Assembly: GCF_030551255.1 (NCBI RefSeq)
Contig: NZ_CP130630.1
Coordinates: 248,001-312,000, forward strand
Reading direction: 5' to 3'
Origin: Streptomyces sp. NL15-2K
GTDB lineage: Bacteria > Actinomycetota > Actinomycetes > Streptomycetales > Streptomycetaceae
DNA length: 64,000 nucleotides
The translations under genes and the position numbers were made by a program. A model generated the notes under the pieces. The model did not search any database. It had not been told where the DNA came from and saw only the letters and a list, made by a program, of their open reading frames with translations. Numbering within the stretch: the first letter of the stretch is position 1; every line of letters starts with the position of its first letter. Shown piece after piece: positions 23,395 to 29,389 of the stretch.

Positions 23395-23842
23395 TGCGGT
23401 CAGCGTCCGGTCGTCCAAGCAGTACTAAGTGGCACGTACTTGTCCGAGGCCCAGGGCGTCCCGATGGTGGTCGGCGTGTCCGGGGCGAACACCCACGGCA
23501 GCCGGCCCTCAAACCCCTGGTGAAGGGGATACCGGCCGTGCGGTCCCGGCGCGGACCGCGCCGCAGGCGCCCCGGCAAGCTCCGCGCCGATAAGGCGTGC
23601 CACTCCGCCGGCACTCTGTTCTGGCTGCGCAAACGCGGCATCATCCCGCATCGCCCGCCCGGCATCGAGTCTTCCGAACGACTCGGGCGCCACCGTTGGA
23701 AGATCGAGACGTCCATCTCCTGGCTGTTCGGCTACCGCCGCCTCACTGTCCGGTACGAACGCAAAGGCAGCCATTCCTCGCGTTCCTCGGCCTCGCCGCC
23801 GCGCTGGCCTGCTACAAGAAACTCGCCAAACTCACCACGTGA
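23395..23842 (+). pseudogene. IS5-family transposase remnant
   Basis: The 3' part of an IS5-type DDE transposase in at least three frames: SEAQGVPMVVGVSGANTH, then GIESSERLGRHRWKIE with the catalytic glutamate region, SWLFGYRRLTVRYERK, and after a frameshift near 23770 FLAFLGLAAALACYKKLAKL. The front half and the left terminal repeat are not recognisable. Confidence 0.85.
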
Positions 23843-23950
23843 GACATCGTCTTAGGCGGCGAACGCGCCGATCCAGCACTTCTCCGTGCGGCCCGGGGCC
23901 CGTATTTCAATTAGTGCTCGGCAGAGGGGGTGTTGGTGGGAGTCTGAGAT

Positions 23951-24916
23951 ATGACCTCGTGTCTGTCAGGCCGCGTTGCCGCTCGTGCTCTGCGGGCCAA
24001 GTTCGATCAGATCCTGCCGCACTTCGATGAGCGCCGCCGTCGGTTGTACCTGGCCAGTGAGGCGACGGCCCTCGGCCGTGGCGGGATCGTCCGGGTCGCC
24101 GCCGCCTCCGGCACCAGTACTGCAACCATCGCGCGAGGTATGGCCGAGTTGGCCGGTTGCTCCTCACCGACCCTGCGGGTGCGGGCTCCAGGTGCGGGCC
24201 GCAAGCGGCTGACAGACACCGACCCTGGTCTGCTGCCCGCGCTGGAGTCGCTGATCGAGCCGCACACCCGAGGCGACCCCGTCTCCCCGTTGCGGTGGAC
24301 CACGCTGTCGTTACGGGCCCTGGCCTCGACCCTCACCACACAGGGCCACCCGGTCAGCGCTTCAACCGTCGGACACCTGCTGCACACCCTGGGCTACAGC
24401 CTGCAGGGAACCGCGAAGACAACAGAGGGCATCAGCCATCCGGACCGCGATGCCCAGTTCACCCACCTCAATGCCACCGCCGCCGCGTTCCTCAACGATG
24501 CCCAGCCGGTGATCAGCGTCGACACCAAGGCCAAGGAATGGCTCGGCAACCGGGACCGGCCCGGTCGCACCTGGCGGCCGGGCAAGAACGCGATCAAGGT
24601 GGACTGCCACACGTTCACCACCAACGACCAGCCCATGGCGATCCCCTACGGGATCTACGACATAGCCAACAACAGCGGATGGGTCAACGTCGGCACCGAC
24701 CACGACACCGCCCAGTTCGCGGTGGAGTCCATCCGACGCTGGTGGCAAAACCGCGGACGGGCGGACCACCCGAATGCCACCCGGCTCCTGATCACCGCCG
24801 ACTCCGGCGGCTCCAACGACCCCCGCCGCTGGACCTGGAAAAGCAACCTTGCCACCTTCGCACGAGAGAGCGGCCTGGAAATCACGGTCTGTCACCTACC
24901 GCCGGGGACATCGAAG
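23951..24916 (+). pseudogene. ISAzo13-family transposase, 5' portion
   Basis: 322 residues of transposase run to the intron junction. An N-terminal DNA-binding region (EATALGRGGIVRVAAASG) is followed by the RNase-H-like catalytic core: ISVDTKAKEWLGN (first Asp), ITADSGGSN (second Asp), and VCHLPPGTSK at the junction. The frame runs nine bases into the intron before stopping at 24925. The coding sequence resumes in the same frame at 28438, where the conserved WNKIEHR with the catalytic Glu follows. Confidence 0.93.
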
Positions 24917-24990
24917 GTCGGGTAGCCGGAGGGATTCGCACCCTCCGGCTCCCACAGATCCGTACGTGACGATCTCTCGTCATACGGCTC
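24917..24990 (-). ncRNA. Group II intron domains V and VI
   Basis: On the minus strand, 24990-24955 gives domain V: GAGCCGTATGACGAGAG closing through GATCGTC to ACGTACGG, with the AGC-type catalytic triad in GAGCCG. Domain VI follows at 24954-24917 as a GCCGGAGGG/CCCTCCGGC hairpin, ending with CTACCCGAC that contains a candidate bulged branch A. Confidence 0.93.
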
Positions 24991-25002
24991 TTGTCGTCCT
25001 GA

Positions 25003-25672
25003 TCACCAGGCCAAGGAGGGGGAACTGACCCATCTCCACTGCGCGAACATCCCCGGGCGGCGCTTGGCTGCCCGCTGGAAGGCCGCGATGGCCTTCCTCA
25101 TCGCGCGAAACCGTCTGTACTTGTTGCGGAGCCAGCGCACCAGGTAGGCGTTGATGCGCATCAGAAGTGGATACAAGGCCGATCGGTAGAACCGGCCGTA
25201 ATACTGCATCCAGCCCGCGACGATCGGATTGATCCGCTGCGCGAGTTCTTCCACGGTGAGGTTGACCCGCCGGTGAAGCCGCCAGGAACGGACCTCCTCG
25301 CCGAGTCGTTTGAGGGCGTCCCTGCTGACCGCGGGACGGAACGACCATCTGATGCGGCCGTTCCTGTCCCGCATTTGGCGCTGTTGGAACCTGAACCCCA
25401 GGAACGTGAACGACGTGTGCTCGTACGAGCCGCGCCGCAATCCGTCCTGGCAGTACACGATCCGGGTCTTGGCCGGGTGCAGACGCAGCCCGACCTCGGC
25501 CATCCTGTCCGAGAGCGCGGCCAGCACCTGGCGGGCCTGGCGCTCGGTGACGCAGTGCACGACCGCATCGTCCGCATAGCGTTCGAAGGGGACGGTCGGA
25601 AAGTCCCGGACCATCCAGACGTCGAACGCGTAGTGCAGGAACAGGTTCGCCAAAACAGGAGAAACCGGGGCT
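25003..25672 (-). pseudogene. ltrA-like: Group II intron reverse transcriptase/maturase, 3' portion
   Basis: This is the second half of the intron-encoded protein. It resumes right after the conserved PQG block with APVSPVLANLFLHYAFD, then the RT active site FERYADDAVVHC, KTRIVYCQD, and FTFLGFRF. The group II maturase domain X follows (INPIVAGWMQYYGRFYRSALYP). It ends at RWVSSPSLAW with no HNH endonuclease domain. The gene was cut by the IS4-type insertion. Joined to 27931-27261 with one target copy it makes an uninterrupted 446-residue protein. Confidence 0.92.
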
Positions 25673-25682
25673 CCTTGTGGCG
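25673..25682. repeat. Target site duplication, left copy
   Basis: CCTTGTGGCG flanks the left end of the IS4-type element and is identical to 27261-27270. Confidence 0.92.
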
Positions 25683-27260
25683 CAATGCCACGTAGATAAG
25701 TGTTTTGGGATTCTCTTTCCACATGTGCACAGCGACACGCCCGCGTTGGTTGTGGATGGTCAACCGGCATGGCCGCCGTTGTCTGTGGCGGCGATGAAAC
25801 GGGTTATCTTCCTTCTTCATGGGTGGGGTTCGGGGTAGCTCGGCGGTTTCCGGTACGCGGTTGACGGACCGGGTGGGTATCGGGGTTCTGACGCGTCTGG
25901 TCGACCGGGATCTGGTCGATGAAGTATTGGCTGAGACGGGCCGGTTCGAGAAGCGGTCCCGCCTGCTGCCGGCCCGCGTTGTCGTCTACTACGTCATGGC
26001 TCTGTGCCTGTTTTTCGGTGAGTCGTACGAGGAAGTCATCCGTCTACTCGTCAATGGCCTACGGTTCCTGGGGACATGGCGCAAGGACTGGAAGGTCCCC
26101 ACGACAAGTGCGATTTCCCAGGCGCGTCGGCGTCTGGGACCGGATCCTTTGCGGGTCTTGTTCGAGCGGGTGGCTCTGCCGTGTGCTCAGCGGGGCACGC
26201 AAGGAGCCTGGCTGGGCCGGTGGCGGCTGATGGCCATCGACGGGTTCGTGCTGGACATTCCCGATACGCCGGCGAATGACGCGGAGTTCGGACGCTCCGG
26301 CGGGACGAAGAACCCCGCTCCTTTCCCGCAGGTGAAAGTCGTGGGACTTGGCGAATGCGGGACCCACGCTGTGGTGGCCGCCCGGCTGGGGCCCTGGCGT
26401 GTGGACGAGGGCGCCCTCGCAAAAGAACTCGTCACCGACTTCGAGCCGGGCATGCTGATCACCGCTGACCGGGGATTTTACGCCTACCGCCTGTGGGAGG
26501 CCGCCGCCGCGACCGGCGCGGATCTGCTGTGGCGCATGCCCGACGGACCTCATCTCCCGGTAGTCCGGCCGCTGAAAGACGGATCGTACGAGTCCTTTCT
26601 GCTCGACCCAAAAGTCAGGAACCGGCGCGGGAACCAGCGTTACCGCGGATCTGCGCGTATCGAGGAGCCGTCCGGGATCCCGGTCCGTGTCGTCGAGTAC
26701 GAAGTGACCAACCGTGAAGGGAAAGGCGAGATCTTCTGCCTGATCACCACGATCATGGATCCCGACGAGGCCAGCGCCGCCGAACTCGCGGCCGCTTACG
26801 CAGAACGCTGGGAACTCGAATCCAGCCTCGACGAGATCAAGACCCATCAGCGCGGCCGGGGCGGCGTCCTGCGCTCGAAAACACCGGACATGATCGAGCA
26901 GGAGATCTGGGCACTCCTACTGACCCATTACGCGGTCCGACATCTGATGTGCGAGGCAGCAGACCAGGCCGACATCGACCCCGACAGGCTGTCCTTCATC
27001 AGATCACTGCGCATCATCCGCCGCCAGGTCACCGACCAGGCGGGCTTTTCCCCCTCAGCGTCTCACGGAAGCTCTTGAAACAGCCCGCACAGAAATCCTC
27101 GAAAGACTCAACCCGCGACGCCGGCACCGTACCAGCCCACGAGCCGTCAAACGCGTCCACGTCCACGCCTACAGGAAGAAACTCCGCACCGAAACCACCA
27201 TCCACCACCCCGACCCACCCGACATCAAAATCCTCGCCGTTTCTTAACTACGCGGCATTG
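25683..27260 (+). mobile_element. IS4-family insertion sequence, 1,578 bp
   Basis: The left end is CAATGCCACGTAGATAAG. The reverse complement of the right end is CAATGCCGCGTAGTTAAG, so the terminal inverted repeats match at 16 of 18 positions. A 10-bp direct duplication, CCTTGTGGCG, flanks it. It contains one transposase gene and lies inside the intron's reverse transcriptase gene in the opposite orientation to that gene. Confidence 0.93.
25819..27247 (+). pseudogene. IS4-family transposase with a single frameshift near the C-terminus
   Basis: About 410 residues are in one frame: the N-terminal domain (LTRLVDRDLVDEVLAETGR), the DDE core with LMAIDGFVLDIPDT (first Asp), LITADRGFYAY (second Asp), and AAAYAERWELESSLDEIKTH (catalytic Glu in the Y-x2-R-W-x-E-E-like block). 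At about 27047 the run TTTTCCCCC breaks the frame, which then stops at 27078. The next frame continues from FPPQRLTEALETARTEILERL to the natural end KILAVS at 27247. One base too many in the run explains it. Whether this is a true mutation, programmed slippage or a read error cannot be told here. Confidence 0.88.
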
Positions 27261-27270
27261 CCTTGTGGCG
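27261..27270. repeat. Target site duplication, right copy
   Basis: CCTTGTGGCG, identical to 25673-25682, adjoins the right end of the IS4-type element. Confidence 0.92.
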
Positions 27271-27931
27271 TCCCACACTCCCGTTCCAGCAGGGTGCCGT
27301 CGGGCATCTTGAGCGGGGCAGCAAGCCACCGCCGCACATACAATTTCACCCAAACGGCGTCGGTGTGCGCTTCCACAGCCTTGACCAGGAGGTCCCAGGG
27401 CACACTGTCGAAGAACTGGGAGATGTCGAACTCGACAACCCAGTCCCGTTTCCAGCTGCGTTCCCGACACTTCTCCACGGCATCCAAGGCGGACCGTCCG
27501 GGCCGGTATCCGAAGCTGTCCGGATGGAGAATAGGATCCACCCGTCGCACCAAATGCCGGGCCACTACGGTCTGAGCCACACGATCAGCGACGGCGGGAA
27601 TCCCGAGGATTCTCTCACCGCCGCCATGCGGCTTAGGAATGGCCACCGCACGCACTGGCGGAGGAAAGTAGGAGCCCGACGACATCCTGTTCCAGACCTT
27701 GTAGAGGTTGTTCTTCAGGTCCTCCTCGAAGTCGGCGATGCTCTGCCCGTCCACTCCCGGTGCTCCCCTGTTTGCCCTGACTTCCTCCCATGCTTCCTTG
27801 ACTTCCCACTTAGAAATCTCAAACGGCTTGGCCTGTGACTTCAACTGGCTCACCGAACTCCTCCCGGACACCGTCCGGTTGATGCGATCAACACAGTCAC
27901 GAACGACCCGGCCCCTTCGCTCCACCCCCAT
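27261..27931 (-). pseudogene. ltrA-like: Group II intron reverse transcriptase, 5' portion
   Basis: This is the N-terminal half of the intron-encoded protein: RT0 to RT4-like blocks with ANRGAPGVDGQSI, RAVAIPKPHGGGERILGIP, PDSFGYRPGRSALDAV and WVVEFDISQFFDSV (first catalytic Asp), ending at ECGTPQG where the IS4-type element entered. The start could be the ATG at 27931 or the one at 28000, 23 codons upstream. Domain IV placement favours the later one. The frame continues exactly at 25672. Confidence 0.9.
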
Positions 27932-28437
27932 TACAGGAGCTTCCCCACTACTACGAGCCGGTCCGCCGGCGCGTTCCGCATCGGTACTCGGCCCCTTCAC
28001 GGCACGACCGCTCGGGGTGCTCCCTCTCGCCCGGCCCTACCAGGACGGGCTGTATCGGTACGCGCCTTCTCCTGTTCCACATGACCGCGGCAGATCAGGT
28101 TCACGTCGTCTCCATGCCGGACACCGCCTGGCCAGTCGGCGGGCTCCCGCCAGGCTTATCCCGGGACGGTTCCAAGCTCCCCGGTTTTGATGTCGTCGGA
28201 ATCTTTTCGACACGTCAGCAACGATTCACTTGCGTTCGTCTCCCTGATCCCCACCTGACGCCTCTCGGACGCCTTTTCCTCATCGCTCACCACGACAGTC
28301 TTCGGCTAACGCGGCATGAGGCGGTTTGAAGCCTCCCCCCGCAGGGCGACTTCGAAGGGCCAATCCTTCATCGGTCACGCAGCACTGCTTCAAGAAACTC
28401 GTCCTACATCGAATTCCCCTCTGCATTCAGGACACAC
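27932..28437 (-). ncRNA. Group II intron 5' ribozyme region (domains I-III), with candidate EBS1
   Basis: This non-coding intron 5' part starts with GTGTGTCC at 28437. TGGAACA at 28079-28073 (minus strand) is complementary to the last seven bases of the 5' exon, TGTTCCA, and lies about 360 nt into the intron, a fitting place for exon-binding site 1. A full secondary structure was not drawn. Confidence 0.75.
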
Positions 28438-29133
28438 TGGAACAAGATAGAGCACCGGATGTTCTGTCACATCACCGCGAACTGGCGGGGGCGGCCGCTG
28501 ACCAGCTACCAGGTCGTCCTCGAGACCATCGCCGCCACAACCACCAGGACCGGCCTGACCATCGGGGCCGAACTGGACACAGGCAGCTACGACCTCGGCA
28601 TCAGCGTCACACCCGCCGAGTTCCACGCCCTTCCGATCACACCCAACACCTTCCACGGTGACTGGAACTACACACTGTCTCCCGTTCCACGACGAGCGCC
28701 AGACGCGCCGGCCACGACACACCGGGCCGACCCGGCCCTGACCGCGATGCTCACCGACCCGGCCCTGACCGGCATGTCACGAACCGCCTTCGAGCATCTG
28801 GTGGCGGTCTCGGAACCTTTCTGGGACGCCTTGGCCGAGGCAGCATTCCAGCGACGCTTCCACCGCCCGCGCAGCTACCGCCACCCACAGACCAGCAGCG
28901 TGGACCACACCCACCGGCTCCTTGCAGCCATCCTCCGCCGCCGCAGAGCGGTGACCATGACGTTCCTGGCCCAACTACTGGGCGTCAACCGCACCAACCT
29001 GTCCATCCAGTACCAGGACGCAAAACGGCTCCTGGACCTGCACCGGATCCTCGTCACGCCGATACCCGGATCGCCCGCCCGCACATTGGAACAGCTACAC
29101 GCCCGAACAACCCCCGCGGGAACCCGTCGCTGA
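28438..29133 (+). pseudogene. ISAzo13-family transposase, 3' portion
   Basis: The frame of the 5' portion resumes with WNKIEHRMFCHITANWRGRP, containing the catalytic Glu, and runs 231 residues to the stop at 29131-29133. The first ~75 residues complete the DDE domain (DLGISVTPAEFHALPI, then FHGDWNYTL). The rest is a C-terminal extension of ~150 residues with a helix-turn-helix look (MTFLAQLLGVNRTNLSIQYQD). The two halves make about 553 residues. Confidence 0.92.
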
Positions 29134-29389
29134 CAGTTATTGAAATACGGGCCCCCGCCGCGCCGGAGTACTGCCGCTGCAACCCTGGCCGAGACGGTGC
29201 CCTTCAACGAGGCATCGGACCGCACGTCGTCTTGCACGACAAACACAGCGGCTCGCCGCGCCCGAAGTCGCGAAGTCCCGTCACCTGGCGGCACGCCAGC
29301 CAAGCACACTCACGAAAAACTCTTGGCCAGCAGGAATAGCGAACTGCAACTGGATTATCAGGCGAAGCGCAGGAGGTGTGGGCTCACCG

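Follow-up and report, generated by a model that had tools for sequence, protein, structure and literature searches.

In the genome of Streptomyces sp. NL15-2K, a stack of mobile elements nested inside one another has very probably been built by target-specific elements, each aimed at a conserved coding motif of another element. The stack lies in a stretch of 64,000 nucleotides of the chromosome (contig NZ_CP130630.1, positions 248,001 to 312,000 of the forward strand), the whole of which is referred to as the window and provides the position numbers used here. From the outside inwards its layers are read as a remnant of an IS701-type transposase gene, an ISAzo13-family insertion sequence (IS), a group II intron and an IS4-family element. 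Two of the three insertions sit at habitual sites of target-specific elements. For both ISs the sites, the target duplications and their recurrence are established, and we infer that the transposases themselves recognise the DNA. The features of the stack are as follows, the junctions of the three nested elements being exact to the base.

23896..29154, plus strand: ISAzo13-family IS carrying the nested elements, with terminal inverted repeats and the ends GGGCCCGTATTTCAAT (model NF033519; ends compared with loci L027, L026, L247, L249 and L250)
23951..24916, plus strand: ISAzo13 transposase, first part, ending in HLPPGTSK (NF033519; comparison with L027)
28438..29133, plus strand: ISAzo13 transposase, second part, starting with WNKIEHRMF (NF033519; comparison with L027)
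24917..28437, minus strand: group II intron on the strand opposite to the ISAzo13 transposase gene, with the IS4 element inside (Rfam RF01999 and RF00029; empty site in L027)
28253..28369, minus strand: Rfam group-II-D1D4-2 match near the 5' end of the intron (RF01999)
24917..24992, minus strand: Rfam group II catalytic intron match at the 3' end of the intron (RF00029)
28073..28079, minus strand: candidate exon-binding site 1 (EBS1), TGGAACA (7/7 pairing with IBS1)
28438..28444, minus strand: intron-binding site 1 (IBS1), TGTTCCA, the final 7 nt of the 5' exon, within the ISAzo13 transposase (7/7 pairing with EBS1)
27261..27931, minus strand: intron reverse transcriptase (RT)/maturase, N-terminal 223 codons, ending in GTPQ (TIGR04416 model positions 4-184)
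25003..25682, minus strand: intron RT/maturase, C-terminal part, starting with PQGAPVSP (TIGR04416 model positions 180-352; PF08388)
25683..27260, plus strand: IS4-family element of the RT-targeting lineage, 1,578 bp, with terminal inverted repeats and the ends CAATGCC(A/G)CGTAG(A/T)TAAG (NF033592, PF13006)
25819..27078, plus strand: reading frame of the IS4-family DDE transposase, 419 codons
25673..25682: first copy of the 10-bp target duplication, CCTTGTGGCG, which reads CGCCACAAGG in RT sense and covers the T-P-Q-G codons
27261..27270: 10-bp target duplication, copy 2, an exact repeat of CCTTGTGGCG
23860..23895, minus strand: putative IS701-type transposase remnant, degenerate, after the ISAzo13 insertion point (GRTEKCWIGAFA; flank translation)
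29155..29260, minus strand: putative remnant of the same IS701-type gene, degenerate, before the insertion point (..LKGTVSA / QRQYSGAA, in two frames), outer limit approximate
23520..23855, plus strand: IS5-family transposase remnant beside the IS701 remnant (NF033580, 44.7 bits; cut-off 110)

A first-pass annotation made from the letters of the window had described three nested elements, and the family models (NF033519, NF033592, TIGR04416, the PF models and Rfam) agree with the families it named. NF033519 scores 424 bits on the left part of the ISAzo13 transposase (model 2-305) and 87 bits on the right part (model 313-387), its curated cut-off of 200 being set for the whole protein; the IS4 transposase reaches 229.6 bits with NF033592 (cut-off 115), 111 with PF13006 (25) and 42.3 with PF01609 (23). 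The span proposed for the ISAzo13 element (23896-29154) and the junctions of the intron (24917-28437) and the IS4 element (25683-27260) were confirmed to the base, as was the exact 10-bp duplication around the latter inside the intron RT gene. The 446 residues given for the maturase correspond to two RT halves of 223 residues each, counted from the ATG and not joined, and the 553 residues given for the ISAzo13 transposase to pieces of 966 and 696 nt, which by arithmetic encode 553 residues and a stop. The three elements and their order stood, and the probable fourth layer, IS701, and the target specificity of both ISs had been overlooked.

The order of events, ISAzo13, then intron, then IS4, is established because both intermediates survive in the same 12.4-Mb genome. 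In L027 an ISAzo13 copy runs straight from window position 24916 to 28438, which is the empty intron site; its transposase is uninterrupted, with 554 open codons from stop to stop, and settles the frame of the split gene. L026 contains ISAzo13 and the intron without IS4, has a single 10-bp target and is 98.9-99.5% identical to the window copy. The RT frame of L026 stays open across the RT domain and then shows a 1-nt frame break near the maturase end relative to the window copy, for which reason L026 was dropped as an intact maturase source.

The IS4 element is present in four identical copies in the NL15-2K genome, which, being identical, have moved recently. Three of the four (the window copy, L024 and L025) split group II RT genes at the same residues, T-P-Q-G, and L024 and L025 carry the element in opposite orientations within copies of one intron. 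Named-genome search, end-pattern searches and flank reading brought together 17 complete copies of this RT-targeting lineage in five genomes, a perfect 10-bp duplication being found in 17/17, with 11 copies located at the TPQG codons of an RT (the window, L024, L025, L060, L061, L062, L064, L065, L066, L067 and L144a). Since L065 and L066 carry the same intron, 16 rather than 17 distinct sites are counted, 10 of which are in RTs with both orientations seen, and the nine RT genes involved have 450-nt flanks that are 53-72% identical to one another. L064 was assigned to an RT by translation only, its frame being broken upstream, and four incomplete copies (L112, L145, L146 and L147) were left out of the counts; L113 (genome G237), of which a single end is visible, likewise occupies a TPQG site. 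By the curated model TIGR04416 (353 positions), all seven RTs scanned in both halves (L024, L060, L061, L062, L065, L067 and L144a) are cut at one place, the left half reaching position 182 and the right half beginning at 184 or 185.

In 10 of the 11 RT copies the duplicated target, read in RT sense, has the form CNCCNCARGG; L061 has GCCCGCAGGG, which deviates at the first base. The target spans the codons ACN CCN CAR GG(N), the fixed bases tracking conserved amino acids and the free ones falling on wobble positions; with the fixed bases on invariant amino acids and the wobble left free, one DNA specificity would fit many RT families. One could suppose that the IS4 transposase simply likes this GC-rich 10-bp sequence and that RT genes merely contain it, as all RT copies match it save for the one base in L061, the targets outside RT genes agree with it at 7 or 8 of 10 positions, and 11 of the 12 open RT loci inspected in NL15-2K carry it at TPQG, three further RTs being occupied. 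However, the NL15-2K genome has 1,573 CNCCNCARGG sites versus about 14 of them in RT genes, wherefore the short motif alone is insufficient for siting; with chance set at 14 of 1,573, the probability of at least three of four copies in RTs is 2.8e-6. Moreover, the sites outside RT genes also share RT-like sequence downstream. When the six such sites were compared by a position score built from nine RT sites with 8,773 window background sites of similar core, their downstream flanks resembled RT sites (P ~1e-5) and their upstream flanks did not (P = 0.53). The recognised target therefore apparently continues downstream for about 20 bp, to the codons surrounding the S-P of the RT motif, and a preference for the short motif as such is improbable.

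For the ISAzo13 element, an end-pattern search of 392 Streptomyces genomes gave 25 ends in 10 genomes, and a backward control pattern gave 0. Assigned by reading, with the two window ends included and L238 placed by DNA only, 19 of the 25 ends abut one IS701 position, between the SGTA and GRTEN codons; of nine flank pieces scanned, seven match IS701, their matches breaking off at model position 109 or 110 or beginning at 111, and the other two match IS110. The window element itself lies between QRQYSGAA and GRTEKC, assigned by flank translation (QRQYSGAA / GRTEKCWIGAFA) to a putative degenerate IS701-type transposase; in other genomes, copies of the element have clear IS701 halves beside them. 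The window copy has its target duplicated over 3 bp, as CCG at 23893-23895 and 29155-29157, a length taken from three clean copies elsewhere (L247, L249 and L250), and no duplication was found around the ISAzo13 copy of L248 (G055), the two flanks of which differ. At L026 (G000:C1:12203500-12210500) the element lies between IS701 sequence and IS110 sequence, both of which are cut where other copies cut them, probably as a consequence of recombination between ISAzo13 copies.

The ISAzo13 gene is also hit by others in its turn, the HLPPGTSKWNKIEHRMF region in which the window intron lies being interrupted elsewhere by an IS4-type element and by a sequence starting with GTGCG. The former, at L248 (G055:C3:204800-212000), is another IS4-type element with the ends CAATGCCGTTGCTTAA, inserted in the ISAzo13 transposase at the P-G-T of HLPPGTSK. 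The latter, at L251/L252 (G141), splits ISAzo13 after WNKIE in sense orientation and ends in AC; it is group-II-like, yet stays below the Rfam group II thresholds.

A second IS4 clade, with longer transposases of mostly ~540-600 residues, was sampled by protein search of the 392 Streptomyces genomes, with up to three candidates scored in each, followed by end-and-duplication finding. In one of its lineages 9/9 copies with a duplication are at the same codon of an IS5-type transposase, ..PEGYCHRQMID/A.. (six genomes, seven distinct flanks); of four right halves scanned, three begin at model position 37, and one whose first codons are damaged begins at 42. Other members of the clade are found at an IS3 integrase motif (L106 and, by reading, L109 at one end), at a different IS5 motif (L107 and, by reading, L111 at one end), at a motif of IS110 (L153) and, with 9-bp duplications, at the start of IS3 OrfA (L155 and L156). 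Ends of low identity (10 of 16 bases) were dropped (L159, L166, L168, L175 and L179). Loci at which no duplication was found are uncounted, namely L154, L157, L158, L160-L164, L167, L173 and L176 in the first finder pass, L182-L191, L194-L198, L201, L204, L207, L208, L211, L212, L215, L216, L218 and L220 in the later pass, and all of L033-L058 except L042, L044 and L047. In a tree of 36 transposases the RT lineage groups with a CTAG-targeting sister, away from the long clade; because the tree separates the two, homing into mobile-element genes is suggested to have arisen at least twice within the IS4 family, the tree being midpoint-rooted and the program warning that long branches meet between its two sides.

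Transposase and RT genes are dispensable and tolerate insertions, and the stack is bordered by IS5 and IS701 remnants, all of which would be expected if elements merely accumulated neutrally in IS-rich regions. Against such a pile-up, nine RT genes are hit at one and the same codon, with insertions in either orientation, the IS701 and IS5 codons likewise recur from genome to genome, and related IS4 lineages in the genus are without such excess among the loci scanned: as controls, 15 pieces from 12 of 16 loci with CTAG or other targets, from the sister and other lineages, included none that matched a transposase or RT model, these pieces being the longest open frames across the site rather than known genes and L047, L177, L178 and L214 being left out. 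As both ISs are target-specific, the nesting is not regarded as a chance pile-up, and an explanation by neutral accumulation is very hard to uphold.

It is likewise very unlikely that a single IS insertion in a single intron was carried onward by retrohoming of the intron, by recombination or through gene conversion, in which case the apparent recurrence would reflect few events. This idea finds some footing in Streptomyces sp. NBC_00154, where L065 and L066 represent one IS-bearing intron at two places, 99.8% identical up to about the intron ends, and in L103, L104 and L105 of the second clade, which look like copies of one interrupted IS5. Nevertheless, the RT-targeting lineage is found in nine distinct RT genes with the diverged flanks given above, the letters of the duplicated target being particular to each, and one intron is found with the IS in both orientations. 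Both intron places in NBC_00154 read as group II RT genes with the insertion just after the LxRYADD codons (exons by reading), and the two IS copies differ by one base in a T run, so that the duplicate possibly reflects movement of the intron after its interruption or two separate insertions. L065 and L144 in this genome thereby form a nest of RT, intron and IS4, the latter at the TPQG of the intron.

Several observations weigh against the reading of the stack as the work of target-specific elements. The fourth NL15-2K copy, L023, is not in an RT gene, and six of the 16 distinct sites of the lineage are outside RT genes (L023, L059, L063, L068, L069 and L108), including L059 and L108, the single copies in their two genomes. 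By hmmscan, a piece adjoining L108 matches histidine kinases and no family was matched by the pieces beside L023, L063, L068 and L069; at L059/L117 (Streptomyces sp. NBC_01549) the IS copy is, by reading, within a polymorphic-toxin-like gene. Initially viewed as plain exceptions, the non-RT sites were reconsidered after the downstream flank score, which suggests that L023 and the others are near-cognate look-alikes, yet real insertions elsewhere. Among the ISAzo13 ends, three of 25 abut an IS110 transposase, all in NL15-2K and including L027, and three match neither IS701 nor IS110, two of the latter belonging to one clean copy with a 3-bp duplication (L250, G218). In the second clade L165, L180, L202 and L221 share a motif near IS3-type ends with no clear coding motif, and L174 (G225), L110 (G290) and the G309 ends L114-L116 have other flanks, such as GCCCTTGACA by GC-rich repeats, with no clear target. 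A preference of the intron for ISAzo13 would be represented by one 7-bp pairing, and its copies may share one insertion event. The RT lineage was seen complete in five genomes, its independence lying in sites and not in strains, and with scoring limited to at most two or three candidates per genome the samples are not exhaustive. Finally, that the transposase alone sets the target is a presumption.

A phylum-wide search for the IS ends (396 genomes) gave, outside the NL15-2K copies, two single-ended hits in two genomes, no more than chance because the backward control pattern gave five. No close plasmid relative of the RT lineage was present among the best hits listed (the top one at 56% amino-acid identity, two records at 60-80% being outside those examined), and a PDB sequence search with the IS4 transposase gave no meaningful match. 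The transposase frame breaks at a T-run/C-run (window 27040-27060, e.g. CTTTTCCCCC) ahead of the basic tail that is conserved in, and characteristic of, the RT lineage; in the window this tail runs on in another frame to ~27246. Judged by run lengths in the window copy, L023-L025, L059-L069 and L108, 13 of 16 copies are out of frame at this point, among them all four of NL15-2K, and L061, L065 and L067 are in frame via two different one-base losses; the break reflects either programmed or transcriptional slippage, or a slippage mutation.

The intron of the window is 3,521 nt long; subtracting the IS and a single duplication leaves 1,933 nt by arithmetic. Group II introns end by consensus in 5' GUGYG and 3' AY, and the termini here are 5' GTGTG and 3' AC. 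RF01999 (D1D4-2) scores 99.3 bits (threshold 36) and the catalytic core RF00029 57.2 bits (threshold 40), and the encoded protein is an RT with a maturase domain, in two halves (PF00078, PF08388 and TIGR04416). The EBS1 candidate, at intron position 359, pairs at all seven positions with IBS1 of the 5' exon; for exon-binding site 2, no exact match of at least 6 nt to the bases directly upstream of IBS1 was found.

The first-pass annotation had further proposed that the innermost insertion disabled the intron protein and froze the stack, a freezing not supported by the data, in which the ISAzo13 element keeps both its ends, an uninterrupted copy of it exists at L027, the IS4 copies are identical and other RTs are present in the genome. 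An end of mobility of the whole stack agrees with the splitting of both the RT and the ISAzo13 transposase in the window and with the frame break near the RT end in the pre-IS4 copy L026, on account of which the intron may have lost its mobility in this genome. On the other hand, the intact ends are potential substrates in trans for the uninterrupted ISAzo13 and IS4 copies of the genome, several other group II RT genes are present in NL15-2K, and an IS-bearing intron has possibly moved in the relative NBC_00154; a frozen fossil is rather unlikely. One RT gene of NL15-2K exists in six scattered chromosomal copies of equal score (L017-L022), whose open frames have 565-664 codons; the TPQG site is free in every one of them.

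In the reading favoured here, that of target-specific elements, the stack would have arisen in three steps. An ISAzo13-family IS would have entered an IS701-type transposase gene between the SGTA and GRTEN codons, its usual site; a group II intron would then have inserted antisense to the ISAzo13 transposase gene, at HLPPGTSK/WNKIEH and via EBS1-IBS1 pairing, killing the transposase of that copy; and an IS4-type element would have entered the intron RT at the T-P-Q-G codons with the target CNCCNCARGG. The transposases themselves would read their target sites, about 30 bp in the case of IS4, and the ISs would gain, in analogy with IS5075, a landing site that is abundant, dispensable, mobile, stable and harmless, at the expense of the host element.

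Target-specific ISs, some of them aimed at other mobile elements, are known. IS231A, an IS4-family element like the one described here, has a hot spot in the ends of the transposon Tn4430 and is thus aimed at a transposon as well, although limited to the ends of that one. Tn7 at glmS likewise recognises conserved coding DNA, but that of a host gene and via a dedicated targeting protein. IS5075 and IS4321 target Tn21-type ends, the site of IS5075 being called a 'safe harbor', with off-target hits at a look-alike in ureC (PMC8269217). As in the present case, an IS is specialised on another mobile element and has look-alike off-target sites; in contrast, the target of IS5075 is the terminal repeat of one transposon family, whereas coding-motif DNA common to different host elements is addressed here, and by transposases of the IS4 and ISAzo13 families. 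ISRm22, also an IS4-family element with one kind of target, has nine copies all in the repetitive extragenic palindrome (REP), and other REP-targeting ISs exist (PMC1525189); REP is, however, a chromosomal extragenic palindrome and not the gene of another mobile element. Introns of group II, including twintrons, that exploit sites within other mobile elements have been described in Thermosynechococcus elongatus, and in TeI4g::ISEL2f an intron open reading frame is interrupted by an IS (PMC2882425), a single case with no recurrent site described in the sections consulted, unlike the IS here, which returns to the same codons in nine RT genes. Among the literature matches listed (titles and starts of abstracts, with most subscription journals outside), no IS homing into coding motifs of RTs or transposases was encountered, nor one that returns to the codons of such a motif across families.

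On a broader scale, the evidence tilts slightly towards a guild of hyperparasitic ISs in Streptomyces whose transposases would have evolved to read the DNA of catalytic or conserved motifs of other elements' enzymes, with the wobble positions left free. Such a guild might have perhaps three origins, the RT-homing IS4 lineage, the IS4 clade homing into IS5, IS3 and IS110 and the IS701-homing ISAzo13 lineage, and would form food chains such as IS701 < ISAzo13 < group II intron < IS4. A nested oddity is thereby turned into a testable rule, according to which some ISs would use coding motifs that other elements cannot change as stable landing sites. This would give natural site-specific DDE transposases with long, wobble-tolerant targets, and the several related lineages with different targets offer material for finding the residues that determine specificity. 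As each insertion inactivates the enzyme of the host element, the guild may hold down the burden of other elements on the chromosome and would offer a mechanism for mutual control among mobile elements.

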